Source: a candidate division Zixibacteria bacterium RBG_16_53_22 (GTDB taxonomy: Bacteria; Zixibacteria; MSB-5A5; UBA10806). From it: 48,827 nucleotides of DNA. The notes beneath the pieces are model-generated. The model did not search any database, was not told the origin of the DNA, and was given only the letters and a program-made list of their open reading frames with translations. Below, piece after piece: positions 12,531 to 39,682 of the stretch. A program made the position numbers and the translations under genes. The DNA is taken from the NCBI GenBank assembly GCA_001775395.1, contig MEWP01000167.1, positions 1 to 48,827 of the forward strand, written 5' to 3'. Positions within the stretch are counted from its first letter, which is position 1. Each line of letters opens with the position of its first letter.

Positions 12531-14007
12531 CTATGGTCCCTCCGATAGTCTTCATTATCTTATAGGTCATGTTCGGAACATCATATCCTGTGAGCGTCAC
12601 TACACCATCCGGGACACGGATGGTCTCGTTTCTGTCGTTGGCTTGTCTCATCTGATAGTTGGCCGATGTCAATCGTTCGACCATCAATGTTGGAAATGCC
12701 TTCTTGACCGCCCGTTCGATGTGACCTGCCGTTGGGAAAGTCGTGAACGGAAATTCCCTCGTGATGTTATTGAGTGTTATTACCAACGCCCGTGGTTTAT
12801 CGACGGACACTCGGAGCTCACTGAACCCAATCAGGGCTCCCGGATTAAGGCCGAACGAGAATAAAGTATTGATGTTCACGTACTTGAATAGTGGCCTTCC
12901 CGCCAAGTCCCTAAAGTATGGGTCCCTCTTGAACACCAATGACCAGTCCCTATCTCCGACATCAAATACGAACATATCTAGGGTCTTGTATATCTCCCTG
13001 TAATAATGGAATGACCCCATGAACCAGCATATCCATCCGAGCGACGTTAGCAATATGAACGTCCCTCGCCTATCCCGTCTACCCCTTAATAACGAGTGGA
13101 TGGCCGGGATACTATCCATGTCGGTCGTTCTATATCCATGCCCACTTTTCGGCCAATAGAATTTCAGAAGCTCGTCCTTTATCTCATCATAATTAAAACT
13201 GTTCATCCAGAAATAATATTTTGATAGTTCTGGACTACCGGAGCTTGGTCTCGGAGGGCCAACTCTTCTAAGAGCTTCTATTACCCAATCCGCCGGGAGT
13301 ACTCCATCCGGCGGTGGTGATGGGTTTGATTCCCCACTCCTCCCTATCCACGTTTCGAACAGGTCCTCATTAAATTCGTGGGCTCCGTCGTGAGACCTCC
13401 ATCTTATTCTGATATGGGGGGCACGACGCTTTGCTGGTTTTGCATGACCCGGAATAAACCTGTCCACTTCTCCGGGTTGAACAAGAAGGGATATCGCATC
13501 CCCGCGATGTTCGGCCTCTTCGACGAGCGCATATGCGGCGGTCAGGGCATTGTAAAAGAACTGGTGGCCTAGTCCTCTACAATATGGATGCCCGCCATAT
13601 GTCATCTCCTCGCCCGCACTCAGCATTATGACAAAATCACCACGGAGGCTGAATTTTCGTCCTTTTTTCGGTTTGAACTCCCTGTGGAATCCCTGCGATG
13701 ACCCAAAGAACAGGTCGCCATATGTAGACAGGCTCCTGAAGTAGTCGGGTCTCCGGTCGTCCGGGTCGAGACCGCTTTTTCTGGCCCACACACCCGCCTT
13801 CCTTTCCGACCTTCTTTTCGTTACCTCTTCGGGTGGGACGATGTTCATGAGGACATCGGCCTTGACCTTGGAAAATATATATGAGTTATATTCGTATGTG
13901 TACGCGGGCCATTGTTGGAGCATATTGAGTATCCAGCAATCGTACTGCTCGTCGGTAACGCCCCATTTTGGTGCGGGGCGAAATTTATGGCCGAGTGGGA
14001 CTGGCAT
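12511..14007 (-). CDS. Probable degenerate VWA-domain partner of MoxR ATPase
   Basis: A 498-aa protein. Residues about 120-180 resemble a von Willebrand A core: strand RGDFVIMLSAGEEM, a helix with HQFFYNALTAAYALVEEAEHRGD, then strand AISLLVQPGE. The metal-binding DxSxS is replaced by LSAGEEM, so metal-dependent binding may be lost. The remainder is unassigned, with aromatic stretches such as GWICWFMGSFHYYREIY. The call rests largely on context, since it lies directly after a DUF2201-like metallopeptidase and a MoxR ATPase. In other genomes the DUF2201 peptidase and a VWA-like domain are one polypeptide next to MoxR. The coding region itself is clear; the domain call is tentative. Confidence 0.6.
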   Translation of the reverse strand: MPVPLGHKFRPAPKWGVTDEQYDCWILNMLQQWPAYTYEYNSYIFSKVKADVLMNIVPPEEVTKRRSERKAGVWARKSGLDPDDRRPDYFRSLSTYGDLFFGSSQGFHREFKPKKGRKFSLRGDFVIMLSAGEEMTYGGHPYCRGLGHQFFYNALTAAYALVEEAEHRGDAISLLVQPGEVDRFIPGHAKPAKRRAPHIRIRWRSHDGAHEFNEDLFETWIGRSGESNPSPPPDGVLPADWVIEALRRVGPPRPSSGSPELSKYYFWMNSFNYDEIKDELLKFYWPKSGHGYRTTDMDSIPAIHSLLRGRRDRRGTFILLTSLGWICWFMGSFHYYREIYKTLDMFVFDVGDRDWSLVFKRDPYFRDLAGRPLFKYVNINTLFSFGLNPGALIGFSELRVSVDKPRALVITLNNITREFPFTTFPTAGHIERAVKKAFPTLMVERLTSANYQMRQANDRNETIRVPDGVVTLTGYDVPNMTYKIMKTIGGTIDGVKVT

Positions 14008-14008
14008 G

Positions 14009-14785
14009 TTACCTCACTTGGACGAACCCTAATTTATCGAGTTCGTAGAGATTGTCAAATAACTCAACTGTGACATCGTAATATCGCTGAAGGTTCTTGA
14101 CCGCCATGTCCATTTCATTGACGAGTAAATTGATTATTTCAACTGCTTTCGTCAACGCTGGTGTCGTCGGTGGATTTTTCAATATCGTCATCACCCGACT
14201 GAACTCGGCGGGCTCGTATATTTCGAGATATCCGAGGGCCATGCCTGCCGCCAAGAACCCCCGTTTAAATGTCTGTTCGGGGTTGTTTTTCAATTCTCGT
14301 GAAAATTTTATGGATTCATATAAAGCCATGAACCCCTGTCTTACTTCATCATTCCCGAGACCGTCGCGTATTCTTGGGGTTTTCCATATCACCCGGTTCA
14401 ATACTATATCAGAATAGATATTTTGTCCACCTATCATGTGCTGGAGCTGGCCTTCGGTTATACTAGTATGGCGTCTTATATAATCGAACTTCCACAAATT
14501 AAATAGAACGACGGCGGCAATTATATTTCCAGGGTCGTATAGTTGATGCCCGACTTCGTGGGCGATGATGACGAGACCGGCGTCGCGGTCTGTGATTTGG
14601 TTTCTTACAACATATAATACACCCGCCGAGAAGAACGCCGGGGGCATTTGACCTTGAGGAGCGAACGAACCGAGGTCGGCTCTAACTTCGTCTTCATCGG
14701 CGTATGATTTCATAAGTATCTGGGTTGGCATGACAGACATGACCTTCCTGAAAATATCCCGAGCAGTAGCCTCGTCTATCGTCAA
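14009..14785 (-). CDS. DUF2201-like HEXXH zinc metallopeptidase
   Basis: A 258-aa protein with HEVGH at residues 76-80 inside the helix LVIIAHEVGHQLY. About 45 residues later comes NIYSDIVLNRVI, which matches the N-x3-D-x2-(I/L)N pattern of the DUF2201 metallopeptidase family, whose Asp gives the third zinc ligand. Families of this type are encoded beside MoxR AAA+ ATPases and normally carry a C-terminal VWA-like domain. Here that part appears to be a separate downstream gene. The C-terminal 100 residues are helical. The gene lies 13 bases after the MoxR gene and 1 base before the VWA-like gene, so the three are probably co-translated. Confidence 0.8.
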   Translation of the reverse strand: MTIDEATARDIFRKVMSVMPTQILMKSYADEDEVRADLGSFAPQGQMPPAFFSAGVLYVVRNQITDRDAGLVIIAHEVGHQLYDPGNIIAAVVLFNLWKFDYIRRHTSITEGQLQHMIGGQNIYSDIVLNRVIWKTPRIRDGLGNDEVRQGFMALYESIKFSRELKNNPEQTFKRGFLAAGMALGYLEIYEPAEFSRVMTILKNPPTTPALTKAVEIINLLVNEMDMAVKNLQRYYDVTVELFDNLYELDKLGFVQVR

Positions 14786-14798
14786 AGGCGGGCCTCCG

Positions 14799-17306
14799 TC
14801 ACTCGACTGTTGTCCCGGCGAGGATGTATAGCTGTGTCATGAACGGGTCGTTTTGGATGTGCTCTGCAAAGTATGTGTCCTGTCTACCCGTCTCCCCCAT
14901 GGCGGCCATGAACTTCTGCAACCACTCAGTCCGTAGTTCATCGTCCTCCTTCTTTGTCCCGTCGGCCTTTACGAGTTTCATATCGTTCATGACATCCATA
15001 GCGGTTAACCATTCTTCATGCCTCCGCTCATTCCAGAACACCTGAGGTATGAAAAAGTACTTGATGAAGTGGGCGAAGTTTAGGAAGTTCTGCTGGATGT
15101 CGGTCTCGACGCCGATGTTGACCCTGTGGTCGAGGACATACGGCAAATGGTTGATTATCATTTCGATTTTCTTGTATCGGTTCTTTTTCCTTTTGTCGTC
15201 AGGCAACGTCTTGTCGTTAACAATGAACGTTAGAGGAGCCCTTCGGTTTCGAACATGGGTCACGAACACAACGGACCTGAGGAGATTTCTCAACGAAAGT
15301 TCAGACCGGCTACCCAACGGGCGGTTCATGGCGTCAAGGGCGGAGAACTCGTCTATGGCTTCCCCGACTGTCGCTGGAGTTTGGATTGTCATCTGGGATT
15401 TTGACCCCTTATATGATATAACCGTCGGGTCGATAAACTGGTCACTCTTGGACCTGATTGTTGGACGTGCGCTAGGTGTCGATGGTTTTTCAACTGACCA
15501 ATATGCACCTTGCTTGAACGTTCTTACCGTCGTGTTCGGGAGGTTCGTGAAGAACGCTATCCATCGCAGGGCCTCTTGGTCCATCGGAATTTTGTCCGTG
15601 ATGGTCCACGTATAGAGTATATCTTCAGGGGTGAGGGGAATGATAGTCGTTTCTGGGTTTCTAAGGTCATAGAAGAACGCCCTTGGGATTTTTGCAGGGC
15701 GGTCCTTTCGTTGTGTCCCTCTCAATATCCGATACCTCGTATTAAGGCCACCCGCCGATAGATATATCCCGACATCTATCCTGTCGAGGAGTGCTCTTTC
15801 CATCTCCATTCCTTCGACATCGAGGTGGGGGTTATAGTCGAAGAAATTAAGATGACCATCCCATTCTGGATGTTTTTCCCTGTCTGGGCTCGTGAAAAAG
15901 TCACCCTTGTATTCGACCCGCTTTTCAGCGAGTAGCCCGAGTAGGGCGTCAGCGACATTGGGGCCAAGGCGATTGGATTCGTTATGGAGCTTGACGAATG
16001 AACTGACGATAGGCCTCGGTGTCGGCTTGAATATATATTTTGATATTTCCTTATCGACCGGCTTGTCATCGACGATTTCCTTCATTTCCCGCTTGTCGAT
16101 GGATATGTCCGTATAGAAAAACACATCCTCGGGTTCCTTATCGGCGTTGTACTGGGCCATGGCAAATATGTCATGTTTCTTCATCCAGTCGAGGAGTGTG
16201 TCTTCGGTAGCGTTCACAGACATAACAGTCGGGTCGGTCTTCCATTGTTGTCCTGACATCGCCATTGCGGCTAGCTGGAGGAGCGTGGTCTTTCCAGTAC
16301 CGGGGGCTCCCTTAAGGAGGCACGACCCGTCGCGCATGAACCACGTAGAGAAAAATACTCCAGCGTCAATAGGGTCCTCGAATGTGAACCTGTGGACTAT
16401 TTCCGAAATGAGTATGTTTATTTTATCGAGTATGTCTTCCCTAGGCTTCGGGATGAATATCTCTTCCGGTGGTGCGGTGACAACTTCATCAGGCGGTGTC
16501 GGCTCGGGTTCCGGTGGCGTCGGAGCCTCGGGAGGCGTCGGGACTTCAGTGGGGGGGGGCGTCGGCGGTGTCGCAAAGCACTTAAGAACTTCTATCGGGA
16601 CGACGGCTGTATCGTCATGTTCGTTCTTAATGGTTGCGATAACCGATTCGGATTGGATTTCGATATTCAATATTCTGACTTTTTGGCCGTCTTCCCATTT
16701 GTGACCCACCACTCTGTTCAAGTCACTAAGTATGATTGGCAGTCCTATTATACTGGTTTCATCCCCCTCCGTACAATATCCTCGGCTAGTGGACGGCGCG
16801 GGGGCGGGGGCCGGGGCCGGGACCGCTCCGAGCTTGATGACCTTCGATGAAGTTTGGATTGTGTGCGCGACACCTTCCCATCTAGGGTTGGTCGGTTTCG
16901 TGAAAAATCTATTGAACCACATTGCTCCTATCTTGGGGATGGTTTCGAGGAGGGGCTTGAAATATCCATCGATGTTAAGGAAATTATCTTCGCCCATGGC
17001 ATCAGCGACTGCTATTATTTTCTCAACGTCCCGCTTGAGGCTCGCCTTATATCCAGGCCCCCATTTACCACCTGTTGATGCCCGGACAATCCTCCCGTCA
17101 CGGGTCTTGTTGTCGAGGAGCATGATTATCATAAATCGGTCTTTAGTCAATCCTGCTGCACCGGGGGCGATGGCCGATACTTTAGACAGGAAAATTTGCC
17201 ATGCATCTCCTGATACACCGAGTGCGATGGCGGAGCTTTTCAACAATGTTACTGAATTGGGGTCGATTTTGACGCCCTTGGAGGGGTTATCGTCCATTAA
17301 AGCCAC
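14799..17306 (-). CDS. MoxR-type AAA+ ATPase with long N-terminal extension
   Basis: An 835-aa protein. Residues 1-160 form an unknown helical domain. An Ala/Pro linker (about 163-172), a small beta domain (about 180-240) and a Pro/Glu linker (about 247-285) follow. The AAA+ core starts near residue 290, with Walker A GAPGTGKTT at 333-341. The MoxR signature is NRLGPNVADALLGLLAEKRV (about 445-464), and ALLDRIDVGIYL marks the sensor region. The Walker B acidic pair reads NE rather than DE. MoxR ATPases remodel or activate partner proteins together with VWA proteins; Acidianus two-tailed virus encodes such a pair. The gene overlaps the upstream zinc-finger gene by 10 bases. Confidence 0.88.
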   Translation of the reverse strand: MALMDDNPSKGVKIDPNSVTLLKSSAIALGVSGDAWQIFLSKVSAIAPGAAGLTKDRFMIIMLLDNKTRDGRIVRASTGGKWGPGYKASLKRDVEKIIAVADAMGEDNFLNIDGYFKPLLETIPKIGAMWFNRFFTKPTNPRWEGVAHTIQTSSKVIKLGAVPAPAPAPAPSTSRGYCTEGDETSIIGLPIILSDLNRVVGHKWEDGQKVRILNIEIQSESVIATIKNEHDDTAVVPIEVLKCFATPPTPPPTEVPTPPEAPTPPEPEPTPPDEVVTAPPEEIFIPKPREDILDKINILISEIVHRFTFEDPIDAGVFFSTWFMRDGSCLLKGAPGTGKTTLLQLAAMAMSGQQWKTDPTVMSVNATEDTLLDWMKKHDIFAMAQYNADKEPEDVFFYTDISIDKREMKEIVDDKPVDKEISKYIFKPTPRPIVSSFVKLHNESNRLGPNVADALLGLLAEKRVEYKGDFFTSPDREKHPEWDGHLNFFDYNPHLDVEGMEMERALLDRIDVGIYLSAGGLNTRYRILRGTQRKDRPAKIPRAFFYDLRNPETTIIPLTPEDILYTWTITDKIPMDQEALRWIAFFTNLPNTTVRTFKQGAYWSVEKPSTPSARPTIRSKSDQFIDPTVISYKGSKSQMTIQTPATVGEAIDEFSALDAMNRPLGSRSELSLRNLLRSVVFVTHVRNRRAPLTFIVNDKTLPDDKRKKNRYKKIEMIINHLPYVLDHRVNIGVETDIQQNFLNFAHFIKYFFIPQVFWNERRHEEWLTAMDVMNDMKLVKADGTKKEDDELRTEWLQKFMAAMGETGRQDTYFAEHIQNDPFMTQLYILAGTTVE

Positions 17307-19159
17307 TCTCCCTTGAACTGCTTCATGTCTCCCGGAAATGATGTCGGTATGTTCCTAGATGGTTTTGGCGCGGGGTTTTGCTCGGTCCCGTACTCGCGGT
17401 CGAACCTTTCCAAGTTCTTATCGACCCGATGGAATAGTGCATGGGTCCAACCTTTGCGTGGTGTCCTTATAAGCTCGGCTACGTCGGGATATTTTCTGGT
17501 GAACATCCGTCTTTCGTCGTTGCGGAGAGTGATGAGTTTGGTGTTCGCTGATGCGTGGAAGCCCCTGACAGATGGCACGTCTTCCGTCCAACTGTGATGT
17601 TTTACTATTTCTTGAACGTCCATCATTATCTCAAATTCCTTATCTTTGTATGATGGTGGGTTCTTGCCGAGGCCGTGATAGTACTTCTTCATGGTCGGAG
17701 CGTCGATGGGAGGAGCCCTGCGGTCGGCCCTCGACGGGTCGGCTTCCCATTCTTTCTCCTTGCGATGCCCGGACCTCTTGCCTACGTCCGTCATGAATGC
17801 GTGGAATGCCCCCTGCTTCGGTGTCGGGAGGTGGGTCACCCTGCGGGCGGCCAACCATTCCTTGAACTCTGGGGAGCTGGTGATGGCCCTGCGTTCCTTG
17901 GAAGTGTAATGGCGGTTGGCGTCGGGGTTCATGTACATCAGGTCGCCCTCGACCTCATAGCCGATGCTCTCCTGACCCCACAACTTTGCCCTCAGGCTTA
18001 ACCATTCCTGAAGGATGAATCGATTGGCATCGTAGTTCTCTTTGGTTGTGAATGATGTGACCTTGACGACGGGCTCCTCGACGAGGCCCTTGGTCGGAGA
18101 ATGATATCCTCCAATCGCCTCGGTCGTTGTATAACCACCAAAAAGATTGGACAGATGTTCCTTGGTTTCGTGGACACGAGAATCGAGCTCGGTCTTGGAT
18201 ATCGGGCGATTGCCTTCATCGGTAGATGGGACATATATGGCCTGCTCGACGGGGAGGGACATCTGGACGGGGTTGTGACGTTTCAGTCCTTCCCGAAGGT
18301 CCTTCATGGCGGCCTCGCGGGTTTCTCGGACCCCGGTGAAAAAGTTACCACCATCGGCATATCCGACGTAACCCCCTTTGACCTTTTCGACCCACATATC
18401 CTTCGGGTTGTGACCAGCGGCGATGTGGTCTTGGACTATTCGCATGATATCCTCGTCGGATAACGTCGGATGTTCGAGCTTTTCCTTCTTGAACATCCGA
18501 TAAATGTCGGGGTTCTCATTTTCCGTTTTTCCGTCCGAAAATAATTTGCTTATCTTCGGATTTGGACCGATGTGCTTTCGAGCCCACAACGTCATCGCGT
18601 CGAACGGACTTCCGAATTTCCTGACGTTGGCTTTTGTGACGGTGTATATCACGGACGGATTTTCAAGAGCCATTTCCGACTTCGTTGGACGGAGACCGGC
18701 ATCCTTGGGTGTGAGGATAGATTGAATCGCCCATGCCCGATATTTGACCCGAACGCCCCTCTCCGCGTACTTGGCAGCGCATGGCTTCTTGATTCGACCG
18801 ACGACCGCCAATGCACCCTTGACGTTGTATGGAGCGTTCCTCGGATATGATGTGTGACGGATGGGGACCGTTCTAAAGGTCCGTGTGAAAAAACATTCCG
18901 GGGGAGCTTGTCGGTGCCGGTCGAACCTCGCCTTCGACCATGGTTTCACGGGGTTGCCTTTGATAGTCGCTATCCCGGCCCCGAGTGCATGGAAGTTCTT
19001 TATCGCAACGTTGAGCTCCAGCTTTCCCCCCGCCTTACGGATGGCGGTGACCAAGCGGTCCTTACATTTCTTGCAGAACGTCTCGGGGTGGAATCCTCCT
19101 TTTGGGTTTCTAATTTTATAACTGGCCCCACCGTTCCCACAAGCGTTGCAGTTCGGCAT
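17297..19159 (-). CDS. Large zinc-finger protein heading the MoxR operon
   Basis: A 620-aa protein starting MPNCNACGNGG. Two CxxC pairs within the first 35 residues (CNACG and CKKCK) form a zinc ribbon. The rest is Lys/Arg/His-rich and mostly unrecognised, with a motif region around DEDIMRIVQDHIAAGHNPKDMW. I place the start at ATG 19159, which has GAGG at a good distance, rather than at TTG 19231, which lies in the AT-rich promoter. As first gene of the operon with MoxR, metallopeptidase, VWA-like and glycine-rich proteins, it may be a substrate or adaptor of that machinery. This is inference. Confidence 0.75.
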   Translation of the reverse strand: MPNCNACGNGGASYKIRNPKGGFHPETFCKKCKDRLVTAIRKAGGKLELNVAIKNFHALGAGIATIKGNPVKPWSKARFDRHRQAPPECFFTRTFRTVPIRHTSYPRNAPYNVKGALAVVGRIKKPCAAKYAERGVRVKYRAWAIQSILTPKDAGLRPTKSEMALENPSVIYTVTKANVRKFGSPFDAMTLWARKHIGPNPKISKLFSDGKTENENPDIYRMFKKEKLEHPTLSDEDIMRIVQDHIAAGHNPKDMWVEKVKGGYVGYADGGNFFTGVRETREAAMKDLREGLKRHNPVQMSLPVEQAIYVPSTDEGNRPISKTELDSRVHETKEHLSNLFGGYTTTEAIGGYHSPTKGLVEEPVVKVTSFTTKENYDANRFILQEWLSLRAKLWGQESIGYEVEGDLMYMNPDANRHYTSKERRAITSSPEFKEWLAARRVTHLPTPKQGAFHAFMTDVGKRSGHRKEKEWEADPSRADRRAPPIDAPTMKKYYHGLGKNPPSYKDKEFEIMMDVQEIVKHHSWTEDVPSVRGFHASANTKLITLRNDERRMFTRKYPDVAELIRTPRKGWTHALFHRVDKNLERFDREYGTEQNPAPKPSRNIPTSFPGDMKQFKGEWL

Positions 19160-19234
19160 GGTCGCATCCTCTTGCGATGTATAAGAGCCGATGTCCGAAA
19201 TAAACCTTTCGGGGAGCTCGAAAAAAAACAATCA

Positions 19235-19300
19235 CCTATTAATTAATATAGAGAAAAATATTTAAACCATTATGTTATAATGGTATTATAATTATTATTG
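19235..19300. promoter_or_regulatory. Divergent AT-rich promoter region
   Basis: AT-rich sequence with TATA-like boxes facing both ways: AATATTTAAA near 19256-19266, and TATTATAATTATTATT near 19284-19299. It lies between the start codons of the MoxR operon (19159, minus) and the DUF2080-like gene (19313, plus). A TTTAAACC element here resembles the TTTAAAC sites upstream of other AbrB-like genes. Confidence 0.55.
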
Positions 19301-19312
19301 GGGACCGCATCC

Positions 19313-19465
19313 ATGACGAGGGCTGTTGTCGATTTCAAAGAAATGAAAGAAAAAATACCCTCGATACCAGGAGAGAAATCGACAAGCGCGATTATCTACG
19401 TCCCTCTCTCATGGGCAGGAAAAAAAGTGGTTGTGTTCCTCATAAATGAAAGGGGGATAAGATGA
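19313..19465 (+). CDS. DUF2080/AbrB-like small regulator
   Basis: A 50-aa protein. Residues 21-45, with EKSTSAIIYVPLSWAGKKVV and a hydrophobic end VVFLIN, match the pattern of DUF2080 and AbrB-like swapped-hairpin DNA-binding proteins, which read roughly G-x-S-x-x-(I/V)-x-(L/V)-P-x-x-W-x-G-K-x-V. Its stop overlaps the start of the 611-aa gene (ATGATG), so the two are co-translated. DUF2080 proteins often accompany transposase genes, but none is present here. It probably regulates its own divergent promoter region; that is inference. Confidence 0.65.
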   Translation: MTRAVVDFKEMKEKIPSIPGEKSTSAIIYVPLSWAGKKVVVFLINERGIR

Positions 19466-21297
19466 TGCCGAGGAAGAAAAAGGACCCGGATGTGAAAATA
19501 CTTCCAGACGATGTGGACGATGAGGATGCCCTACTCGGGGAGGACGTGGAGGACGAACCTGAGCCCGAACCTGAGCCCGACGTGGGGCCGAAGGAGGACG
19601 CCGGTATGTGGAAGCAAAAGTACTACGATGCCGAGCGGTCCAAGTCCGAGGTCGCGTCCGAATATCGTCAGAAAATTAATCAACTTCAGGAGGAGCTTCG
19701 GAAGTCCAGGTTGGAAAAGATGGACAAAGATGGAGGTGACCTCGATGGTGATGAACGGGCGACCGCGCCCGTCAGTAGGGCGTCCGATACCGACGAACGA
19801 CCGCCATACCGCATCGTCAAATGGGTCCAAGAACGGGCCATGAACGGGCAGGCCGTCATGGTCCCCCGTGAGATACCCGGCCTATCATACGAGGACCATC
19901 CGAGGGCTGAAGACCTCCCGCTCCAAATCATCCTCAACTGGGGTCCCGGCGAATACAAGGTCCGTGACGGGCGGGGCAAGATTGTCGGCGGGTTCAACAT
20001 CACCCCGGCAGGGGCCGAGGGTGCCCCCGGCATGGGCATGGGTGCTCCCCCAGCCATCAATCCAGCGAACGCCAACATCGGCCAGTTCATGATGGACCCG
20101 ATGCAACGTGCCCTCAACCTCTTCGACGAGGGCAAGAAGAGAGGGGATGATAAACTGATGGCGCGGGCCGGGCAACTCATGGACAGGGCCATGGAAGGCG
20201 GGGGCGGTGGCATGGGCGAACTCGAAAAAACCCTCGGGCTCCTCAAGGCACTCAACGATTACTCCGCACAAGCACGGGCTCTCGTCATGCCTCCGGGTGG
20301 CTTCCCCGGCTCGGGTGGCGTCGAGGACAAGGAGGTCGCCCTCAAACGCCTCGAAATGGAGGTCGCTGATAAAAAGTGGGCGGGCGTCGAACGCATTATA
20401 TCCGGGGTCACCGAAAAAGCCGAAGGCATCGTTGAACGGGTCGTAAAAGAACTCAAGGCACCGGAAGCCAACAAGGAGCAAGTCAAGAACGCCGCACAGC
20501 GTCTCGGAGGGGCTAGTGCCGGGGCTCGGTTCATTCCCGCAAATCAGCCTCCATCCCCCCCCGCTTCGCCCCCGCCTCCGCAGGCACCTCCACGACCTAA
20601 GACCGTAGCACCCCCAGGAACCGTCGTTAAATGCGGTGGGTGTAGCAACGACTTCACCATCAATGATTTCCTATCCCATGTCCACAGCTGCCCCGGTGGC
20701 GGGCAGCCCGCCGCCCCGCAGGGGACGCCGATGGCGGCCCCACAAACCCCCGGAGGAAGAGGAATGCCTGAACTCCATCCAGAACTGAAAACATATCTTG
20801 GCCTAATGAGGAGCTTGACGAACTACATCGTCGCGTTCAACGACGGTGACAACGACGCTTCCCCCGAGGCAGTTGGTAAGACCGTATGGTTGGGTGTATC
20901 TGTCCCCGGAAAGGATGACGATAAGGCAAAGCTCCTGTCCATCGTAGATACAGGATATGACCGCATTTCTAACAGGGAGGACCTTAACAACATCGTCAAG
21001 GGGCTCGACGCGTTCCCTAACTTTACGCCCGAGCAGACGGCCATGTTCATCGAGGCGGCAGTCGTCAGCGGCATCATGAGAAACGAAGAGGTCGAACATC
21101 TCGAAGATGTTGGTGACCTCGGTCCAGCATTGGACGAGTTCAAGAACCACATCGCCATCCAACAGTCACCAAAAGGAAGAGAATGGATATGCCGCCTCCT
21201 GAACGCCGTCGCAATAAAGGCTGGACGACCGGCCCCCCACGCCGATTTCCTTCCGGGAGCTCAGGGGGCACGGAGGGGAGGGGCGGATAACCTATGA
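19462..21297 (+). CDS. Coiled-coil and zinc-finger protein of unknown function
   Basis: A 611-aa protein. The N-terminal 45 residues are very acidic (EDEPEPEPEPD). A coiled coil follows near residues 50-90 (QKINQLQEELRKSRLEK), then a compact domain (about 115-170) with YRIVKWVQERAM. The centre is Gly/Met/Pro-rich. A C2HC-type finger CGGCSNDFTINDFLSHVHSC lies near residue 395 after a Pro-rich linker, and a helical C-terminal domain ends the chain. A second ATG at 19465 is an equally good start. Modular low-complexity linkers suggest a scaffold or hub. No enzyme motif is visible. Confidence 0.8.
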   Translation: MMPRKKKDPDVKILPDDVDDEDALLGEDVEDEPEPEPEPDVGPKEDAGMWKQKYYDAERSKSEVASEYRQKINQLQEELRKSRLEKMDKDGGDLDGDERATAPVSRASDTDERPPYRIVKWVQERAMNGQAVMVPREIPGLSYEDHPRAEDLPLQIILNWGPGEYKVRDGRGKIVGGFNITPAGAEGAPGMGMGAPPAINPANANIGQFMMDPMQRALNLFDEGKKRGDDKLMARAGQLMDRAMEGGGGGMGELEKTLGLLKALNDYSAQARALVMPPGGFPGSGGVEDKEVALKRLEMEVADKKWAGVERIISGVTEKAEGIVERVVKELKAPEANKEQVKNAAQRLGGASAGARFIPANQPPSPPASPPPPQAPPRPKTVAPPGTVVKCGGCSNDFTINDFLSHVHSCPGGGQPAAPQGTPMAAPQTPGGRGMPELHPELKTYLGLMRSLTNYIVAFNDGDNDASPEAVGKTVWLGVSVPGKDDDKAKLLSIVDTGYDRISNREDLNNIVKGLDAFPNFTPEQTAMFIEAAVVSGIMRNEEVEHLEDVGDLGPALDEFKNHIAIQQSPKGREWICRLLNAVAIKAGRPAPHADFLPGAQGARRGGADNL

Positions 21298-22851: not shown

Positions 22852-23094
22852 TCACTTCCACAATTTCCCGATGGCCTGCCCGACGGCATATCCCGATGTT
22901 GCGACGTGCTTGGCAACTATACCATCTGTCGGAAAAAGATTTTCCTTATTCGATGCAAAATAGGCGAGGTCCGTCGGTATGTCGGCGGGCTTGATGTCGG
23001 TCTTGGACTTTCCGACGGCGATGCCTATGGCCCCTCCGATGATGGCAGCTACGACCAACCAACCTGGGTTCACGGGCTCCATGATATTATACAT
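22852..23094 (-). CDS. Small single-pass membrane protein
   Basis: About 80 aa with a membrane helix near residues 10-28 (GWLVVAAIIGGAIGIAVG) followed by a polar tail. ATG 23094 lies just after a GGGGGG stretch. A second ATG at 23082 is also possible, and the frame is open upstream to 23238. I prefer the shorter form because a separate small gene with its own promoter appears to occupy the upstream sequence. Confidence 0.55.
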   Translation of the reverse strand: MYNIMEPVNPGWLVVAAIIGGAIGIAVGKSKTDIKPADIPTDLAYFASNKENLFPTDGIVAKHVATSGYAVGQAIGKLWK

Positions 23095-23132
23095 GACCCC
23101 CCTTCTTATTAAATTTTTCCTTATCGTCCGAG

Positions 23133-23294
23133 TTATTTCATCATACACGTCGGACATTGACCAGTGACGCATCCTCTCAACCAATCGCAATGAAAAATAA
23201 TCTGGATGACCCTGAAATTCAAAACGCACCGACGGCATCTACTCCGGTCGCAGATATATTGGGCCAGCCACCGGAGCAATTCCGGGATTCTCAT
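23133..23294 (-). CDS. Small cysteine-rich zinc-binding protein
   Basis: A 53-aa protein starting MRIPELLRWL with cysteines at residues 15, 20, 23, 36, 42, 47 and 50, ending CPTCMMK. The CRRC and CPTC pairs could bind zinc. Support comes from GGGAGGACCA right before ATG 23294 and a TATA box (TTTATAAGG) about 35 bases upstream. It overlaps the upstream extension of the next gene in another frame, so one of the two readings must be wrong there. Confidence 0.5.
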   Translation of the reverse strand: MRIPELLRWLAQYICDRSRCRRCVLNFRVIQIIFHCDWLRGCVTGQCPTCMMK

Positions 23295-23324
23295 TGGTCC
23301 TCCCATTCCCCCTATCGGAAATTT

Positions 23325-23334
23325 CCTTATAAAC
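23325..23334 (-). promoter_or_regulatory. TATA box for the small minus-strand operon
   Basis: On the minus strand the sequence reads GGTTTATAAGG, about 35 bases before ATG 23294 with a Shine-Dalgarno sequence in between. It fits an archaeal promoter serving the three small genes down to 22491. Confidence 0.55.
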
Positions 23335-23389
23335 CTATGCTTCACAATCAAAATCTTTGATGAACGCTAATCCTCGGCCCCGTTTCTTT

Positions 23390-23450
23390 TTAACGACCGC
23401 TAATCGATTTGGTTGTCCAATATCTTCCGAGTTGTGCGTCAATTCGGAAG
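23390..23450 (+). promoter_or_regulatory. Composite element, copy 1: CGCTAAT, 19-base spacer, 27-bp inverted repeat
   Basis: CGCTAAT at 23398-23404 is followed after 19 bases by CTTCCGAGTT (23424-23433), a 7-base spacer, and AATTCGGAAG (23441-23450). The same order with the same 19- and 7-base spacings occurs at 48756-48808. The inverted repeat looks like a dimeric protein binding site. It could be an operator or part of a replication origin. Confidence 0.75.
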
Positions 23451-23476
23451 GTGTTCGGTATCCGTTCCGTCGTGGG

Positions 23477-23503
23477 CTTCCGTTTTGTCAATGAACTCGG
23501 AAG
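23477..23503 (+). repeat. 27-bp inverted repeat, copy 2
   Basis: CTTCCGTTTT (23477-23486), a 7-base spacer and AACTCGGAAG (23494-23503) repeat the architecture of the site 53 bases upstream. The left arm is imperfect. A further single arm, CTTCCGAGTT, occurs at 23604-23613 followed by ACCCGCTAAT. No gene is evident between 23340 and 23612. Confidence 0.7.
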
Positions 23504-23612
23504 TGGGTCAGTCTGTTATACTAAGATAGTTGCTACCATATGGAAATTGGGTGGAATTGCTTTTATTACTGTACTATATAAAAAGCAATTTAACCCACAT
23601 CGACTTCCGAGT

Positions 23613-23936
23613 TCACAACCCGCTAATAACGTTCGTCAACTTCTCTCGGGCGAACCTATCGGAGAGTTCTGGTATTGGGAAAGCCGCCCACCCACCCTTT
23701 TCGTTGTAACCGAGAACATATACACAAAGGCACGAGGAGCACACCCCGATACGACTGTGACTTTCGTCGAGCAGAACGAGCTTATCGTCCCATTCGAGGT
23801 ATTTGAACATTCCTGCGAGGCCGTAGAATGTTTGACGGTCCTTCTTCGTCGAAGATATGAACATCGTTTCATTTCCACACCCACAAAGTGATGCGGTCAG
23901 CGGCCATCCCATAGCAAATTTCAATGCATTATCCAT
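23613..23936 (-). CDS. Small zinc-binding protein downstream of primase-helicase
   Basis: A 107-aa protein with two cysteine clusters, CGCGNETMF (residues about 18-26) and CSSCLC (about 67-72), suggesting a zinc ribbon interrupted by an insertion. It starts within the last bases of the primase-helicase gene (8-base overlap), so it is translated with it and may be a replication accessory protein. Its stop lies next to a single CTTCCGAGTT arm. The family is not recognised. Confidence 0.7.
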   Translation of the reverse strand: MDNALKFAMGWPLTASLCGCGNETMFISSTKKDRQTFYGLAGMFKYLEWDDKLVLLDESHSRIGVCSSCLCVYVLGYNEKGGWAAFPIPELSDRFAREKLTNVISGL

Positions 23937-27126: not shown

Positions 27127-27232
27127 CGTTATATATTAATCTTTGGCTAAAATGTTTAAACAAATGTTTAACCGGGTCGAAAAAAAAATACATGGAAACA
27201 TTGAAATACCACGGGAGGTATATGGTTGACCA
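27127..27232. promoter_or_regulatory. Divergent regulatory region with TGTTTAAAC direct repeats
   Basis: Between the primase-helicase (minus) and the AbrB gene (plus) lie TGTTTAAAC at 27153-27161 and TGTTTAAC at 27165-27172, spaced 12 bases start to start. TATA-like TTATATATTAA lies at 27129-27139. The same TTTAAAC motif covers the start of another AbrB gene at 46.2 kb, so these may be AbrB operator sites. Confidence 0.55.
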
Positions 27233-27427
27233 ATGAAATCCAAGAAGCCCAAGAAAATAATGACGGATGTGTGTCGAGCACGAAGCAATGGACCGACATC
27301 ACTGGTCATAACGATAAAAAAATCTATCGTCAATGAAATGAATATCGAACCAGACGACCATCTCATCATCACGTTCAAAAAAATCTCAATGGACAAGATA
27401 CTGGCAAAGGCATTGAAATCAAGGTGA
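27233..27427 (+). CDS. AbrB-like transcription factor
   Basis: A 64-aa protein. A Lys-rich N-terminus is followed by a swapped-hairpin AbrB pattern: SNGPTSLVITIKKSIVNEMN, then IEPDDHLIITFKKI. It carries the typical strand, helix, D-D/H-x-hydrophobic turn and final strand. Proteins of this type act as dimeric regulators or as the antitoxin half of toxin-antitoxin pairs; no toxin gene is adjacent. It lies between the replication promoter region and the OB-fold gene, so it probably controls both directions. Confidence 0.75.
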   Translation: MKSKKPKKIMTDVCRARSNGPTSLVITIKKSIVNEMNIEPDDHLIITFKKISMDKILAKALKSR

Positions 27428-28865: not shown

Positions 28866-29450
28866 ATGAACGAAGACGAAGAAATCCAGAAGGCCCTCCG
28901 TGAAGATGAACTACCACCACCTCCCCCGAACCCCGGCATCAACAAGTCCAAGATGCCGGACCCGGCGACCGTTGGGTCTGTCCCACAGGACGCTTCCGCA
29001 TACGAGCTCATGGACCGAAGGGACGAGGAACAGATACTTGCCGAGCTTGGAGAACTACCCGCCGATGTCCTGAACACGATGGTCTATTCGTTCAAGATGG
29101 ATGGCCGTGATGTGACGGGGCTGTCGTGGATTGGCGTCAAGACACTCGTGGTCGAGCTCGGTCAGTATTCAATCGAGGACCTGAAGGTCGAGGAGACCCC
29201 AGAGACATACCGATGCATCGCCAAGGCCATCGACAAAAAGGCCCAGGTGACGATGTACGGGACCGCCGAACAGGATAAGATGATGCGATTTAAGGATAAC
29301 GAACGGAAGGACCCGTTCGCCCTCCAAAAAGCGTCGTCCAAAGCCCAACGCAATGCATTCATGGCGGTCCTCCCCAAGGGCATCGTCGAGGAGTTCAAGA
29401 AGAAATGCCTCGCCGTTAATCCGAGGGGTCCGAGGGTCGCATACCGATGA
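28866..29450 (+). CDS. Possible single-strand annealing/recombination protein
   Basis: A 194-aa protein starting at ATG 28866 after AGGAGGTGATACCA. Residues about 55-170 form one domain ending in ALQKASSKAQRNAFMAVLPK. This helix resembles the K-x-x-S-K-A-x-R-N-A signature seen in several phage and archaeal proteins assigned to Rad52-like annealing families. It sits between an OB-fold protein and a UvsW-like helicase, as annealing proteins often do. The N-terminus is disordered and Pro-rich. I give the function as probable only. Confidence 0.5.
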   Translation: MNEDEEIQKALREDELPPPPPNPGINKSKMPDPATVGSVPQDASAYELMDRRDEEQILAELGELPADVLNTMVYSFKMDGRDVTGLSWIGVKTLVVELGQYSIEDLKVEETPETYRCIAKAIDKKAQVTMYGTAEQDKMMRFKDNERKDPFALQKASSKAQRNAFMAVLPKGIVEEFKKKCLAVNPRGPRVAYR

Positions 29451-29459
29451 GGGGGTTTC

Positions 29460-30821
29460 GTGATAAGGCTCATCGCCAATGGTAACTCCGTATTCATTTA
29501 CGGAGACCCTATTCGGGTAAAAAAAGTCCGGTCCAGCGTCGAGCCTATCATGAAATTCCGACCCAAGGGGTTCGAGTACAGCGAGAAGTACAAATCGGGG
29601 GAATGGGATGGCACGATATCTCTCTACAAGAAATTTACAAATTCATTCCCCCGTGGTTTTTTGAATGAGGTTTTTACTATCCTCGAATTATCTGAGATTG
29701 AGTACGAATTTATTGACGGGACCCAACTCGGAAAATTCCTTCCTGTTGAAGTGGGTCCCCTTCCAATGACCCTTCGACCCTATCAATCATATGCCGTTGA
29801 ACAAGCGATAAACATGAAGCGTGGGGTCATATGCCTCCCGACGGGAACGGGTAAGACCCTATGCGCCGCCGAGATTATCCGCCGTCTCGGTTTAACGACC
29901 GTTGTATATGTTCACAAGCTCGAATTGTTGCATCAATGGACGGACACCCTCGCCGGACTGTTCAACATGCCCAAGACCGAAATCGGGATGGTCGGGAATG
30001 GCGTGGTCATCCTGAAACCGATAACAATCGCCATGGTCCAGACGGTAGGACGCCTCCCATCGGCCCTGTTTACGGACTTCGGTGTGACAATATTCGACGA
30101 GACGCACCATGTCGCCGCAGATAGTGTTTATGAAATTTCATCCGAATCCAAGAGCCCGTATCTGTTCGGCCTATCGGCAACCCCATACCGGGCCGACGGG
30201 AAGGACAAGATGATTGCCGGGGGTGTGGGTGATTTCATCGTCAACTACGGCCTCACCGAGATGATTGATAAAGGATACCTCGCCAAGCCGTCGGTGACAA
30301 TATATAAAACCGTCCCTCAGAGCTATCCCCGATGGATGAAGTTCGCTGATGTCTATCGGGATTATATCGTTGATAATGCTCATCGAAACAACCTCGTATC
30401 TGGCATCGTGAAGTACTATGCCGACCGGGGCATGACCGTATATGTCCACGTCAAACAAGTCCGTCACGGAGAGGTCCTGCACCGTCTTATCCCCGACGCC
30501 ATGTGGATACACGGGAAGCACAATACCATCACGAGGCAGACCGCAATCCATAAATTTTCCAAGGAAGGTGGCGTTCTGATATCGACGTTACTTGGGGAGG
30601 GCGTCGATGTGCCGGGGATGGATGTCCTAGTCCTCGCATGTGGTGGCTTATCTGAGGTCTTCGTTCGGCAGCTCATCGGTCGGGTCCTGCGGATAACGGT
30701 CGATAAAAAGAAGGTTGTCATCGTGGACTTCGACGACATGGCCCGCCATCTGGCCGACCATGCCCAGGAGAGAGAACGGATTTACAGGAGCGAAAAGGCA
30801 TTCGAGGTGAGGATAATATGA
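29460..30821 (+). CDS. UvsW/XPB-like superfamily 2 DNA helicase
   Basis: A 453-aa helicase with a GTG start behind GAGGGGG. Residues 1-100 form an N-terminal domain with KYKSGEWDGTISLYKK, like UvsW and related branch-migration helicases. Motifs are clear: LRPYQSYAVEQA (Q-like), PTGTGKT at 127-133, DETHH at 213-217, SATPYRADGK near 237, and the motif VI sequence RQLIGRVLR near 405. It probably unwinds or remodels recombination and stalled-fork intermediates of the viral genome. It belongs to the 27.5-33.9 kb replication operon. Confidence 0.9.
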   Translation: MIRLIANGNSVFIYGDPIRVKKVRSSVEPIMKFRPKGFEYSEKYKSGEWDGTISLYKKFTNSFPRGFLNEVFTILELSEIEYEFIDGTQLGKFLPVEVGPLPMTLRPYQSYAVEQAINMKRGVICLPTGTGKTLCAAEIIRRLGLTTVVYVHKLELLHQWTDTLAGLFNMPKTEIGMVGNGVVILKPITIAMVQTVGRLPSALFTDFGVTIFDETHHVAADSVYEISSESKSPYLFGLSATPYRADGKDKMIAGGVGDFIVNYGLTEMIDKGYLAKPSVTIYKTVPQSYPRWMKFADVYRDYIVDNAHRNNLVSGIVKYYADRGMTVYVHVKQVRHGEVLHRLIPDAMWIHGKHNTITRQTAIHKFSKEGGVLISTLLGEGVDVPGMDVLVLACGGLSEVFVRQLIGRVLRITVDKKKVVIVDFDDMARHLADHAQERERIYRSEKAFEVRII

Positions 30822-30988
30822 CCAAGAAAAGGTCGGCGAAGATAAAAAGATGTGACCATTGCTCATTTTTCAATGAATGTCCTTGCGAATGCGGTTGGGG
30901 ATATTGCTATTCGTTGGGACAGTTTGTTGAAACTGAAACAAATCCCGACAAATTTGACAATGGGCCATGTGAAGACTACGACCCCTGA
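30818..30988 (+). CDS. Tiny cysteine-rich zinc protein
   Basis: A 56-aa protein with cysteines at residues 12, 15, 21, 23, 25, 30 and 51 (CDHC, then CPCECGWGYC). It starts in an ATGA overlap with the helicase gene. It is probably a zinc-binding protein. Function unknown. Confidence 0.65.
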   Translation: MTKKRSAKIKRCDHCSFFNECPCECGWGYCYSLGQFVETETNPDKFDNGPCEDYDP

Positions 30989-30999
30989 AGGTGAAAATA

Positions 31000-31140
31000 A
31001 TGAGAGACGACCGACCACTCAAGGCGCTGAAAGCATATTTAGACCTCAAGGAAATTGATATAGAACTATTTGGAAAAAACGAACTACCGATTATATGGAG
31101 AATCAAATTGTTTATTCATATTATATGGAGGGCATGGTAA
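31000..31140 (+). CDS. Small hydrophobic-tailed protein
   Basis: A 46-aa protein starting MRDDRPLKAL after GGTGAAAATA. The last 20 residues (LPIIWRIKLFIHIIWRAW) form a hydrophobic but Arg/Lys-containing helix, likely amphipathic and membrane-associated. Its existence rests on the ribosome binding site and tight spacing. Confidence 0.5.
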   Translation: MRDDRPLKALKAYLDLKEIDIELFGKNELPIIWRIKLFIHIIWRAW

Positions 31141-31159
31141 TCGAAATGGAGAATGTCAA

Positions 31160-31426
31160 ATGACGATAAAATGCGACGCTGATTGTGAGTTCAATAAGAA
31201 TGGTGAGTGTCAGTCCTTTTCTATCACCATCGAGGTCGAGGAAGAGTACGGACATCCGGTATGTCAAACATTGAAACGCCCCCCGAAGAAACCGATGACC
31301 GAAGAGGAGATTGCTCACACCTTGGAAAGGATAAAGGATATGATTGAGAATCCTCCGAATGCTGACCGGCTCTATGTAAACCCAGAAACGGGAGATGTAA
31401 CAGATGGAAAGAAAATCCGACGATAA
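31160..31426 (+). CDS. Small cysteine-containing protein
   Basis: An 88-aa protein starting MTIKCDADCEFNKNGEC after GGAGAATG. Cysteines at 5, 9, 17 and 35 may bind a metal. The C-terminal half is a charged helix (TEEEIAHTLERIKDMIEN). It overlaps the start of the nuclease gene by 23 bases. Function unknown. Confidence 0.65.
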   Translation: MTIKCDADCEFNKNGECQSFSITIEVEEEYGHPVCQTLKRPPKKPMTEEEIAHTLERIKDMIENPPNADRLYVNPETGDVTDGKKIRR

Positions 31427-32090
31427 AGGAATCCGGTGGTACACCATCGCCGGTGGGGCTCAACTCCCGTCAGTGACCAGTATCCTCCATAATTTCCTCC
31501 CCGAACCACCCGCTTTGGCTGCGTGGAAGGCCCGACCAACGGCTACCGCCGACCTGAAGTTCGCCGCTACCCTCGGGACTATCGCCCACTATCGGATAGC
31601 GACCATATTCGCTGAGGCGTTTCACCTCCCGATGGTGGACCTCGAACTCGACAAGGACGCCCCCCCTTTAGACTATGACCTCATCAACGGGGTCAAGATG
31701 GCTATGGTGGCGTTCGCCAAGATGATGCAGAAGCACGAGCTCATCCCGCATATCATCGAGCATTCGACGTGGCATCAAGAAATGATGTATGCCGGGACCG
31801 TCGATTTCCTCGGGGACCTTGATGGCGTCCCGTCGCTAATCGATTTCAAGACCTCGCCGCAGGTCCGAGATAGTCACCGGGCGCAGGTGGTCGCCTACAA
31901 GAGGGCGGTTCTGAGCCATCCCGACGCAAGGTTTAAACCCCAACAAGCCGTCGTCATTGTCGTGTCGCCCGTGAATGGATTCAAGGTCGAGGTCGTGAAG
32001 GACGAAGATGCCGCATGGGACCTTTTCTGGACGGCGTTCGACAACTTCCAGAAGGCCCATCGACCGAAGGACCGATGGTGCAACCGATGA
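31404..32090 (+). CDS. PD-(D/E)XK nuclease, Cas4/RecB-like
   Basis: A 228-aa protein. Motif GTVDFLGDLDG (Asp134) followed by SLIDFKTS (Asp147, Lys149) is the D...(D/E)xK active site, with a conserved Glu/His region before it (HIIEHSTWHQEMMY). The final helix with SHRAQVVAYKRAV matches motif IV (Q-x3-Y) of Cas4/RecB-type exonucleases. There is no Cys cluster, so an Fe-S version is unlikely. Its place after the UvsW-like helicase and possible annealing protein suggests end resection in recombination. No cas gene is nearby. Confidence 0.85.
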   Translation: MERKSDDKGIRWYTIAGGAQLPSVTSILHNFLPEPPALAAWKARPTATADLKFAATLGTIAHYRIATIFAEAFHLPMVDLELDKDAPPLDYDLINGVKMAMVAFAKMMQKHELIPHIIEHSTWHQEMMYAGTVDFLGDLDGVPSLIDFKTSPQVRDSHRAQVVAYKRAVLSHPDARFKPQQAVVIVVSPVNGFKVEVVKDEDAAWDLFWTAFDNFQKAHRPKDRWCNR

Positions 32091-32221
32091 ACGACACAAA
32101 TTGGAATATCTATCGATGTCACGATTGTCATGCTATGTGGAAGACGCCACCACACGTCGAGGTCTTCGCCTGCCCATCGTGTATATCAAAAAATTTCGAG
32201 GATATAACACCGGGGAAATAA
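32087..32221 (+). CDS. Zinc ribbon mini-protein
   Basis: A 44-aa protein made almost entirely of a zinc ribbon: CHDC and CPSC about 20 residues apart. It starts at ATG 32087 in an ATGA overlap with the nuclease stop. Function unknown. Confidence 0.7.
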   Translation: MNDTNWNIYRCHDCHAMWKTPPHVEVFACPSCISKNFEDITPGK

Positions 32222-32222
32222 T

Positions 32223-32441
32223 ATGAAGAAGGTTGAGGAGCCCAAAGTTGAACGCCCCAAGGAAGTCCCGTTCCTATGCTGGCCTCCGGGCACGGAACCC
32301 ACTGATAAGAAGGAATGGCGAAAGTTCGCCCCGGTCGTTGTGTGGGCCATCGATGCAAGATTGGCCCGGAAGCGTCTCAAGGATTCCATCACGGATGCCG
32401 ATGACTGGGAAATCGAGATGTGCCCGAAGGTGATACCATGA
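32223..32441 (+). CDS. Small hypothetical protein
   Basis: A 72-aa protein, Lys/Pro-rich at the N-terminus, then helical (FAPVVVWAIDARLARKRLKD). Two isolated cysteines. It begins 1 base after the previous stop and overlaps the next gene by ATGA. No family is recognised. Confidence 0.6.
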   Translation: MKKVEEPKVERPKEVPFLCWPPGTEPTDKKEWRKFAPVVVWAIDARLARKRLKDSITDADDWEIEMCPKVIP

Positions 32442-32647
32442 ATAAGAAGGGGACAAAGCCGTGCATGAACTGTGGTCGCGCCATTGGATATACCATCAAT
32501 TTTGACCAATCCAATCACGAGGCCCCCGTCCTGTTCTGTTCTCTAAAATGCTTCAAGGAATTTGCGAGAACGCCAAAGAGAGGAGGCATACGAATAGTCA
32601 AAGGGACCATCGATGCCGTCGAAGAGCAACTGAAGAAGGAGGGATGA
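32438..32647 (+). CDS. Zinc-binding protein (MYM/ribbon-like)
   Basis: A 69-aa protein with CMNCGRAIGY and VLFCSLKCFKEF, a C-x2-C...C-x3-C arrangement like MYM-type or TRASH-type fingers. The start at 32438 overlaps the preceding stop. A helical tail follows the finger. Possible protein-protein or nucleic-acid contact; function unknown. Confidence 0.7.
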   Translation: MNKKGTKPCMNCGRAIGYTINFDQSNHEAPVLFCSLKCFKEFARTPKRGGIRIVKGTIDAVEEQLKKEG

Positions 32648-32650
32648 CCG

Positions 32651-32827
32651 ATGTGGTTCCTGACGATAATTGGAGGTCTGGGTATAATCCTGTTCGTCGC
32701 TCTGGCGGTCTATATCGTGATTGCCCTTCTCACGGACGAACATCCAGTTTCGATGTTCTTGACCTTGGTGGTCGCTATCATAATGTTTGGCATTATGTTC
32801 ATCGGGGTCGGGTTCTACGGATGGTGA
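32651..32827 (+). CDS. Two-span small membrane protein
   Basis: A 58-aa protein with two membrane helices, residues 2-24 (FLTIIGGLGIILFVALAVY) and 33-55, separated by the short polar loop LTDEHPV. Sequence just upstream contains GGAGGGATGACCG. It may be a holin-like or envelope protein, but only topology supports this. Confidence 0.6.
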   Translation: MWFLTIIGGLGIILFVALAVYIVIALLTDEHPVSMFLTLVVAIIMFGIMFIGVGFYGW

Positions 32828-32831
32828 TGTG

Positions 32832-33617
32832 ATGGCGGCAACAGGAACGAACGAATGGGCCAAGGGAAAGTTCAACATCCAGAGAGGATGCGAACACGGA
32901 TGCCGGTACTGCTATGCCTTGGAGGAATCCCTCCGGTTCGGTCGGGTCAAGGATTACGAGGACTGGAAATGCCCGGTCATCAATTTCAAGAAGGTCAGTC
33001 AAAACTTCCGCAAGAGACCCTACCGGATAATGTTCCCCACGACGCACGACATCACCCCGAAGAACATCAACGAATGTGAGCTCGTCCTTCGGTCAATGCT
33101 GAAGTCTGGCAACGAGGTTCTCATCGTCTCCAAGCCCCACATGAGATGTATCCAGCGCCTCTGCGACTACCTCATTGATTATCAGAACCAGATAACATTC
33201 CGGTTCACCATCGGGTCGGTGCTGGATGTCTTCCTCAAGTTCTGGGAACCGGGAGCGCCCTGCTTTGCGGAACGGTTCGAGGCCCTTGAACATGCCTACA
33301 ACTGCGGCTTCGAGACTTCGGTGTCTTGTGAGCCCTATCTCGACGCATCCATCACGGAACTTGTCCGTCAGGTCACCCCGTTCGTGACGGACGCTATCTG
33401 GATAGGCAAGATGAACAAGGTCGAACGCCGGGTGGATACGACGGGATGGACGGACGCCGACAGAGAATTTATCACGACGGTAAAATGTGCCCAGTCCGAT
33501 TCGGCGGTCGCCAGATTGGCCGCCGCCCTGAAGGACAACCCGAAGGTCAAATGGAAAGAATCAATAAAGAAGGTCCTCGGCATCCCATTAGCGACGGAGG
33601 CCGGGAAAGACGAGTAG
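32832..33617 (+). CDS. Radical SAM protein (phage Gp37/DUF5131-like)
   Basis: A 261-aa protein. The radical SAM cluster motif CEHGCRYCY (Cys20, Cys24, Cys27) stands near the N-terminus, and the start NEWAKGKFNIQRG matches the DUF5131/Gp37 family and spore photoproduct lyase relatives. A later block FETSVSCEPYLD is typical of that family. Members are common in phages and are thought to act on nucleic acid; the reaction is not settled. I place the start at ATG 32832 because GGTGATGT precedes it. Confidence 0.8.
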   Translation: MAATGTNEWAKGKFNIQRGCEHGCRYCYALEESLRFGRVKDYEDWKCPVINFKKVSQNFRKRPYRIMFPTTHDITPKNINECELVLRSMLKSGNEVLIVSKPHMRCIQRLCDYLIDYQNQITFRFTIGSVLDVFLKFWEPGAPCFAERFEALEHAYNCGFETSVSCEPYLDASITELVRQVTPFVTDAIWIGKMNKVERRVDTTGWTDADREFITTVKCAQSDSAVARLAAALKDNPKVKWKESIKKVLGIPLATEAGKDE

Positions 33618-33627
33618 GAGGAATGGC

Positions 33628-33924: not shown

Positions 33925-33934
33925 AAACGATATT

Positions 33935-33974
33935 GGGAGGGGTCGATGAAAGGTGGCTAACCCCGCCCCCTCCC
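33935..33974. terminator. Hairpin between convergent operons
   Basis: GGGAGGGG (33935-33942) pairs with CCCCTCCC (33967-33974) across a 24-base loop, in the short gap between convergent gene ends at 33924 and 33977. It is a reasonable bidirectional terminator or RNA end-protection element. Confidence 0.5.
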
Positions 33975-33976
33975 GT

Positions 33977-34986: not shown

Positions 34987-35002
34987 CTTTCAACCTCCAT
35001 GT

Positions 35003-35326: not shown

Positions 35327-35343
35327 CTATCTCGCCTCCTTTT

Positions 35344-36904: not shown

Positions 36905-36937
36905 GTTGGTCCAGTCCGACGGTAATCAGGCCGACAT

Positions 36938-36984: not shown

Positions 36985-36998
36985 AAGGAGGCGAAGGC

Positions 36999-39681: not shown

Positions 39682-39682
39682 G

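Follow-up and report, generated by a model that had tools for sequence, protein, structure and literature searches.

General features of the element

The window analyzed here is 48,827 bp long and corresponds to the entire contig (C167) of a bacterial genome bin consisting of 169 contigs and 3.86 Mb. The contig represents a DNA element of an unclassified, virus-like type, and its genes are listed together with the other features in Table 1. Families of terminases, portals or capsids were not detected among the element proteins, with the only exception of a partial terminase-type match of the HerA-like ATPase.

Table 1 Genes, repeats and structured sites of the element
Feature	Position	Strand	Remarks
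Proteins with a terminal transmembrane helix followed by lysines	3298, 3820, 4481
Gly-rich repeat protein, 973 aa	9609-12530		Collagen-like Gly-rich repeat at 10932-11543, - strand
Small membrane protein gene	22852-23094	-	Far side of the non-coding gap
Extra half-site CGTCCGAGTT	23125-23134	+	9/10 matches; 5' of the small membrane protein gene start
Second CGCTAATC repeat	23356-23372	+	82% identical to the block at 23389-23405, which follows 33 bp downstream
TTAACGACCGCTAAT block	23390-23404	+	19 nt left of palindrome 1
Palindrome 1, CTTCCGAGTTG-TGCGT-CAATTCGGAAG (11-5-11)	23424-23450	.	Exact match; inverted repeat I3
Degenerate palindrome 3	23477-23503	.	Right arm 23494-23503 perfect, part of the stem-loop outer stem
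124-nt stem-loop	23492-23615	.	Perfect 13-bp outer stem TGAACTCGGAAGT/ACTTCCGAGTTCA around 98 nt; candidate replication-origin core
Inner AT-rich hairpin	23548-23597	.	17-nt arms, 88% complementary; 16-nt loop; inverted repeat I2
Small gene, 107 aa	23613-23936	-	Overlaps the 3' end of the primase-helicase gene
Primase-helicase, 1062 aa	23929-27117	-	Putative prim-pol-like N-terminal domain; motifs consistent with an SF2-type helicase
UvsW-like helicase gene	29460
Cas4-like or RecB-like exonuclease gene	31404
Radical SAM protein gene	32787		Distantly related to one of ATV
Topoisomerase-like protein gene	38794		49% to Flavobacterium phages
N6/N4 DNA methylase gene	43923
HerA-type ATPase gene	44665
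AbrB-type DNA-binding protein, candidate regulator	45954-46214	-	TIGR01439 E 5.5e-6, 26.0 bits vs cut-off 28.3; PF04014 E 7.8e-5
TTAACACCCGCTAAC block	48748-48762	+	19 nt left of palindrome 2
Palindrome 2, CTTCCGAATTG-AACGA-CAACTCGGAAG	48782-48808	.	Exact match; contig end 19 nt away

The N-terminal 200 aa of the primase-helicase gave a weak match to LigD_Prim-Pol (E 0.0031, below the curated cut-off), and an FDFD motif and a cysteine-rich stretch can be read from its sequence. The Walker A motif GAARSGKTTG and the motif DEVS are consistent with an SF2-type helicase, as is a weak DEAD match (E 0.016), while no SF3 helicase or winged-helix family was found in the protein. The single-sequence structure model of the primase part had a mean pLDDT of 36.5, i.e. 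low confidence, and the model of the putative AbrB protein was of low confidence as well.

Besides the AbrB-type protein listed in Table 1, there are further small AbrB/MazE-like proteins at 35688-36062 (+), which is weakly supported, and at 27233-27427 (+) and 19313-19465 (+), both recognized by eye only. All exact matches of TGTTTAAAC in the window are located at 27153-27173 and 46213-46233, where they form closely spaced pairs 11-12 nt apart, one upstream of the primase-helicase gene and the other where the AbrB-type gene preceding HerA begins; these pairs are a candidate second operator family. Strong hairpins were also noticed in and around the small gap 7019-7117 (CTCCGGGTCCCTATTTCATCAGGGACCCAGAG at 7074) between two - strand genes, which may be a possible terminator. 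A tRNA-like 3' half (GGGGGTTCGAGCCCCCCACGGGC) is present in the gap 36870-36965 and might be an attachment-site relic; neither ARAGORN nor Rfam called a tRNA in this gap, and there was no Rfam support for the tRNA-like end at 36930-36960.

All 12 copies of the TATA-like sequence TATATATA are located in intergenic gaps, and the small membrane protein gene has an ATG at 23082 that would be compatible with leaderless transcription. Such gap-confined boxes, the AbrB-type proteins and the possibly leaderless starts suggest an archaeal host, and due to these archaeal-looking promoters and regulators the contig may be an archaeal virus misbinned in a bacterial genome bin. TFIIB was absent from the bin, and a search for archaeal SSU gave no match. 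The tetranucleotide agreement of the contig with the sampled host contig L008 was 0.63, with seven other host contigs giving values from 0.55 to 0.93 against L008; the tetranucleotide usage of the contig is unlike that of most sampled contigs of the bin. A simple circular contig is unlikely, as the joined ends would stop the left-cut protein after about 25 residues, and no neighboring contig was found by the end sequence. In the search of the phylum for CRISPR-spacer-like matches to positions 1-20000 and 28900-48827, the match in the element's own bin was coding and the rest were weak or of low complexity.

Palindromes and the associated sequence block

The inverted repeats which had been proposed by a sequence-only reading of the DNA were confirmed by a motif scan of the whole window, in which CTTCCGARTTG-N5-CAAYTCGGAAG has exactly two exact copies, palindromes 1 and 2, and the third copy is degenerate, with two mismatches to CTTCCGARTT-N7-AAYTCGGAAG. 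The number of such sites expected from 100 dinucleotide shuffles was 0.00, none being present in any shuffle. One extra G-C pair lengthens the arms of both main palindromes, resulting in an 11-5-11 structure. The arms are conserved and the central five nucleotides differ (TGCGT in the left copy, AACGA in the right one); compared to palindrome 1 in inverted orientation, palindrome 2 is identical at 24 of the 27 positions. The centers of palindromes 1 and 3 are 53 bp apart, which is about five helical turns.

Both regions are non-coding, with the left palindrome located in a 518-nt gap (23095-23612) and the right one in the gap 48725-48827. Seven of the 12 arms with at least 9/10 matches fall within 649 nt, or 1.3% of the window, and two lone half-sites, at 12268 and 18609, are within coding sequence.

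The block TTAACnnCCGCTAAY ends exactly 19 nt before both main palindromes, with the probability of this occurring by chance being about 1 in 1000. The spacing of CGCTAAY (23398-23404 and 48756-48762) noted by the sequence-only reading is exact in both copies, and TTAAC precedes it at 23390 and 48748. The best same-register match between the flanks had a score of 10 in 120 nt, which was equalled by 23 of 19,752 random position pairs of the window and by seven of 20,000 shuffled flank pairs. GCTAAY is rare, and five of its 14 copies in the window are inside the two regions. The TATA-like box attributed earlier to the spacer of the right copy is indeed present there (CTTTAAAT, 48774-48781) and only there, the left copy having CCAATATC at this place. 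The description of the locus as a composite element common to the right end proved right in the sense of a repeated module. Conserved arms around a variable center, the equal CCGCTAAY spacing and the confinement of the motif to the element support the suggestion that selection has acted on a multi-part, sequence-specific site.

Stem-loop structure 3' of the primase-helicase operon

What had been described as a “single arm” at 23604 is in fact paired with the right arm of palindrome 3: TGAACTCGGAAGT at 23492-23504 and ACTTCCGAGTTCA at 23603-23615 match perfectly over 13 bp in inverted orientation. No other perfect 13-nt inverted pair with arms at most 200 nt apart exists in the window, the average in simulated sequences being 0.16. 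When folded as DNA in a 132-nt stretch, the stem-loop has an energy of -23.5 kcal/mol with a z value of -5.87, none of the 200 shuffles being as strong, and it ranks first among 8117 sampled windows after GC correction. Inside it there is a hairpin with the arms at 23548-23564 and 23581-23597 and an AT-rich 16-nt loop between them.

The stem-loop starts 41 nt after the left palindrome. It lies immediately 3' of the operon encoding the primase-helicase, whose stop codon is about 314 nt away; the small overlapping gene is in between, and its own stop codon sits in the right foot of the outer stem. The arm word CTTCCGARTT recurs both in the tight palindromes and at the feet of the long stem. No GC-skew switch was detected at the stem-loop site. 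A stable G-U-paired hairpin forms on the + strand for palindrome 1 and on the - strand for palindrome 2, and no Rfam match was found; an RNA role is unlikely since the stable strand differs between the palindromes and no RNA family is matched.

Distribution of the motif and search for relatives

The motif is confined to this contig: neither the remainder of its genome bin nor 128 other genomes of the phylum contain it, and its strict form is missing from IMG/VR. With up to three mismatches allowed, there are three copies in the contig and four isolated three-mismatch matches in the 128 other genomes. A looser motif gave eight matches in IMG/VR, which have no common context and were treated as chance. 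In GTDB contigs a looser pattern gave 71 loci, mostly from Anaerolineae.

The Anaerolineae loci share the same 10-base arms with the element but contain longer perfect palindromes, AGA-CTTCCGARTTCT...AGAAYTCGGAAG-TCT, which have AGA/TCT outside and CT/AG inside, are often followed by a T-run and are not accompanied by CCGCTAAY. The inward and outward extensions are present in 46 and 56 of the 71 loci, respectively, whereas the element palindromes have no such extension. Due to the extended stem, the T-runs and the missing CCGCTAAY these loci were rejected as relatives and considered terminator-like look-alikes. The palindrome AGACTTCCGARTTCT-AGAAYTCGGAAGTCT is widespread in Anaerolineae genomes (GTDB loci L026-L096), often with a T-run next to it, and looks like a conserved terminator family.

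No syntenic relative was found in IMG/VR using the helicase, HerA, topoisomerase-like, AAA, primase-helicase and another protein, nor in GTDB contigs using the primase-helicase. The search of the phylum did not reveal one either, and there was no match in the plasmid collection.

Possible function of the locus

The left cluster (about 23356-23615) may, in our tentative reading, be a replication or maintenance origin of the virus-like element, which is the preferred explanation given the palindromes far above chance level, the arm word recurring in both contexts, the top rank of the stem-loop and its position behind the primase-helicase operon, matching that of the stem-loop in plasmid pRN1. 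In the mechanism proposed, a dimeric protein would recognize the 10-11 bp half-site CTTCCGARTT(G) in inverted pairs, which are represented by the tight palindrome 1 and by the two feet of the 124-nt stem-loop, capable of cruciform formation. That one word is used for the tight palindromes as well as for the stem feet suggests recognition by a protein, as pairing alone would not need it. Protein binding, assisted by negative supercoiling, would render the AT-rich inner hairpin single-stranded and thereby give the primase-helicase, whose gene is immediately upstream, a template on which to begin synthesis. TTAACnnCCGCTAAY, located 19 bp off, would serve this module as another protein-binding site.

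The right copy (CCGCTAAY-19-palindrome) may be a second module, the stem-loop of which would be located past the contig end, about 40 nt beyond 48808 and with ACTTCCGAGTT-type feet. Such a stem-loop would be out of sight, since the contig ends 19 nt after the right palindrome and the left stem-loop starts 41 nt after its own. Against an origin are the right copy itself, showing no stem-loop in the 19 nt left before the contig end, the missing GC-skew switch, the weak primase assignment by sequence and its low-confidence model, the SF2-like helicase and the small gene between the primase and the stem-loop.

The main and real rival of an origin, although a less likely one, is a set of operators bound by a dimeric, perhaps AbrB-type, transcription regulator encoded by the element, with CCGCTAAY serving as an upstream activator site. 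The TATA-like CTTTAAAT beside the right palindrome is accompanied by an ATG at 48820, and this spacing would suit an archaeal promoter overlapped by an operator, the gene downstream being off the contig. In addition, the small membrane protein gene is preceded by a 9/10 half-site, the element codes for one or more AbrB-type proteins, the best of them scoring just below the cut-off, and the archaeal virus regulators SvtR and AvtR provide a precedent, as they use imperfect inverted repeats (PMC5569661). SvtR, AvtR and the AbrB-like C68 resemble the putative case here in that imperfect inverted repeats or repeated words are bound by small element-encoded regulators (PMC5569661), but their operators are located at promoters, unlike the left copies, and the long stem-loop has no counterpart there. 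For the left palindromes, the closest gene start that they could control is 330-400 nt away and a good TATA box is missing, and the 13-bp long-range pair and the inner hairpin would be superfluous for an operator. The repressor or activator regulon suggested by the sequence-only reading is only partly supported: candidate AbrB-type regulators are encoded, but a known gene with a clear promoter is seen at neither main copy, the 49 kb contain only two to three sites, and the arrangement of the left cluster around a 124-nt stem-loop behind the primase-helicase operon is more origin-like.

Other explanations appear considerably less probable. The 11-bp inverted arms around a 5-7 nt core resemble core sites of tyrosine recombinases, and CCGCTAAY repeats, which would be arm-type sites, flank the left cluster on both sides; a site-specific recombination or resolution site is nevertheless improbable, as the copies have different cores (TGCGT and AACGA), which by the usual rule precludes recombination between them, and no integrase or recombinase is among the families shown for the proteins of the window, the contig being incomplete. 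Clustered inverted repeats in a non-coding gap beside replication genes, as seen here, are also typical of partition sites. A centromere-like partition site of the element is, if anything, slightly more improbable still, given that no ParA or ParB family was detected among the scanned proteins. It is very unlikely that the sites are RNA elements or transcription terminators at operon ends: both palindromes do lie past the last gene of an operon, form hairpins and share the arm word with the terminator-like palindromes of Anaerolineae, but on the operon sense strand both hairpins contain an A-C mismatch and are not followed by a U-run, with no outer Watson-Crick extension, no second inner pair and no T-run directly after the stem. 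It is hardly credible that the 124-bp structure is a MITE-like transposable remnant bounded by terminal inverted repeats of 13 bp and perhaps by a duplication of 3 bp, since despite the perfect terminal repeats and the CAA on both sides it is present in a single copy, the 3-bp match is likely to occur by chance, and the two tight palindromes with the same arms and the common CCGCTAAY spacing would be left unexplained.

Comparison with known systems

In plasmid pRN1, a stem-loop of 100 nt begins 54 bp 3' of orf904, the primase-helicase gene; this stem-loop is essential for replication, works when moved and has been proposed as the origin (PMC4234260, PMC3869888). The locus described here is similar to that of the pRN family from Sulfolobus in that non-coding DNA 3' of a primase-helicase gene forms a paired stem enclosing a large loop, the whole structure measuring about 100 nt. 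There is no sequence relation between them, and the stem-loop here is 124 nt long and combines an outer stem of 13 bp with an inner hairpin. The feet of the stem also represent a half-site recurring elsewhere as palindromes, a small gene is located between the primase-helicase gene and the stem-loop, and a second module is found 25 kb away, while the helicase is SF2-like rather than SF3 as in pRN1. Our claim is only that the site would work like the pRN1 origin; membership in the family is not claimed, as the helicase type differs.

A similar stem-loop was described 3' of the replication genes near the middle of the genome of Bordetella phage BIP-1 (PMC4234260). As in the element, the replication gene of BIP-1 is on the complementary strand near mid-genome with the stem-loop at its 3' end, although the BIP-1 primase is combined with an SF3 helicase and the arms in the element form a repeated half-site.

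A more far-reaching and quite doubtful possibility is that a probably archaeal, non-tailed unclassified virus carries two origin modules in the same orientation about 25 kb apart, each consisting of a CCGCTAAY block, a palindrome and a cruciform with half-site feet. In this design a primase-helicase from an undescribed family would fire the modules, and one protein word would both mark the origin and close the cruciform.

In unclassified viruses, an origin can rarely be recognized. If the origin reading is true, the stem-loop-behind-primase layout of pRN plasmids and phage BIP-1 would extend to an unrelated element whose helicase is of another type. The search rule for orphan viral contigs would then be a stem-loop that lies 3' of a primase-helicase gene and has feet carrying a repeated half-site.
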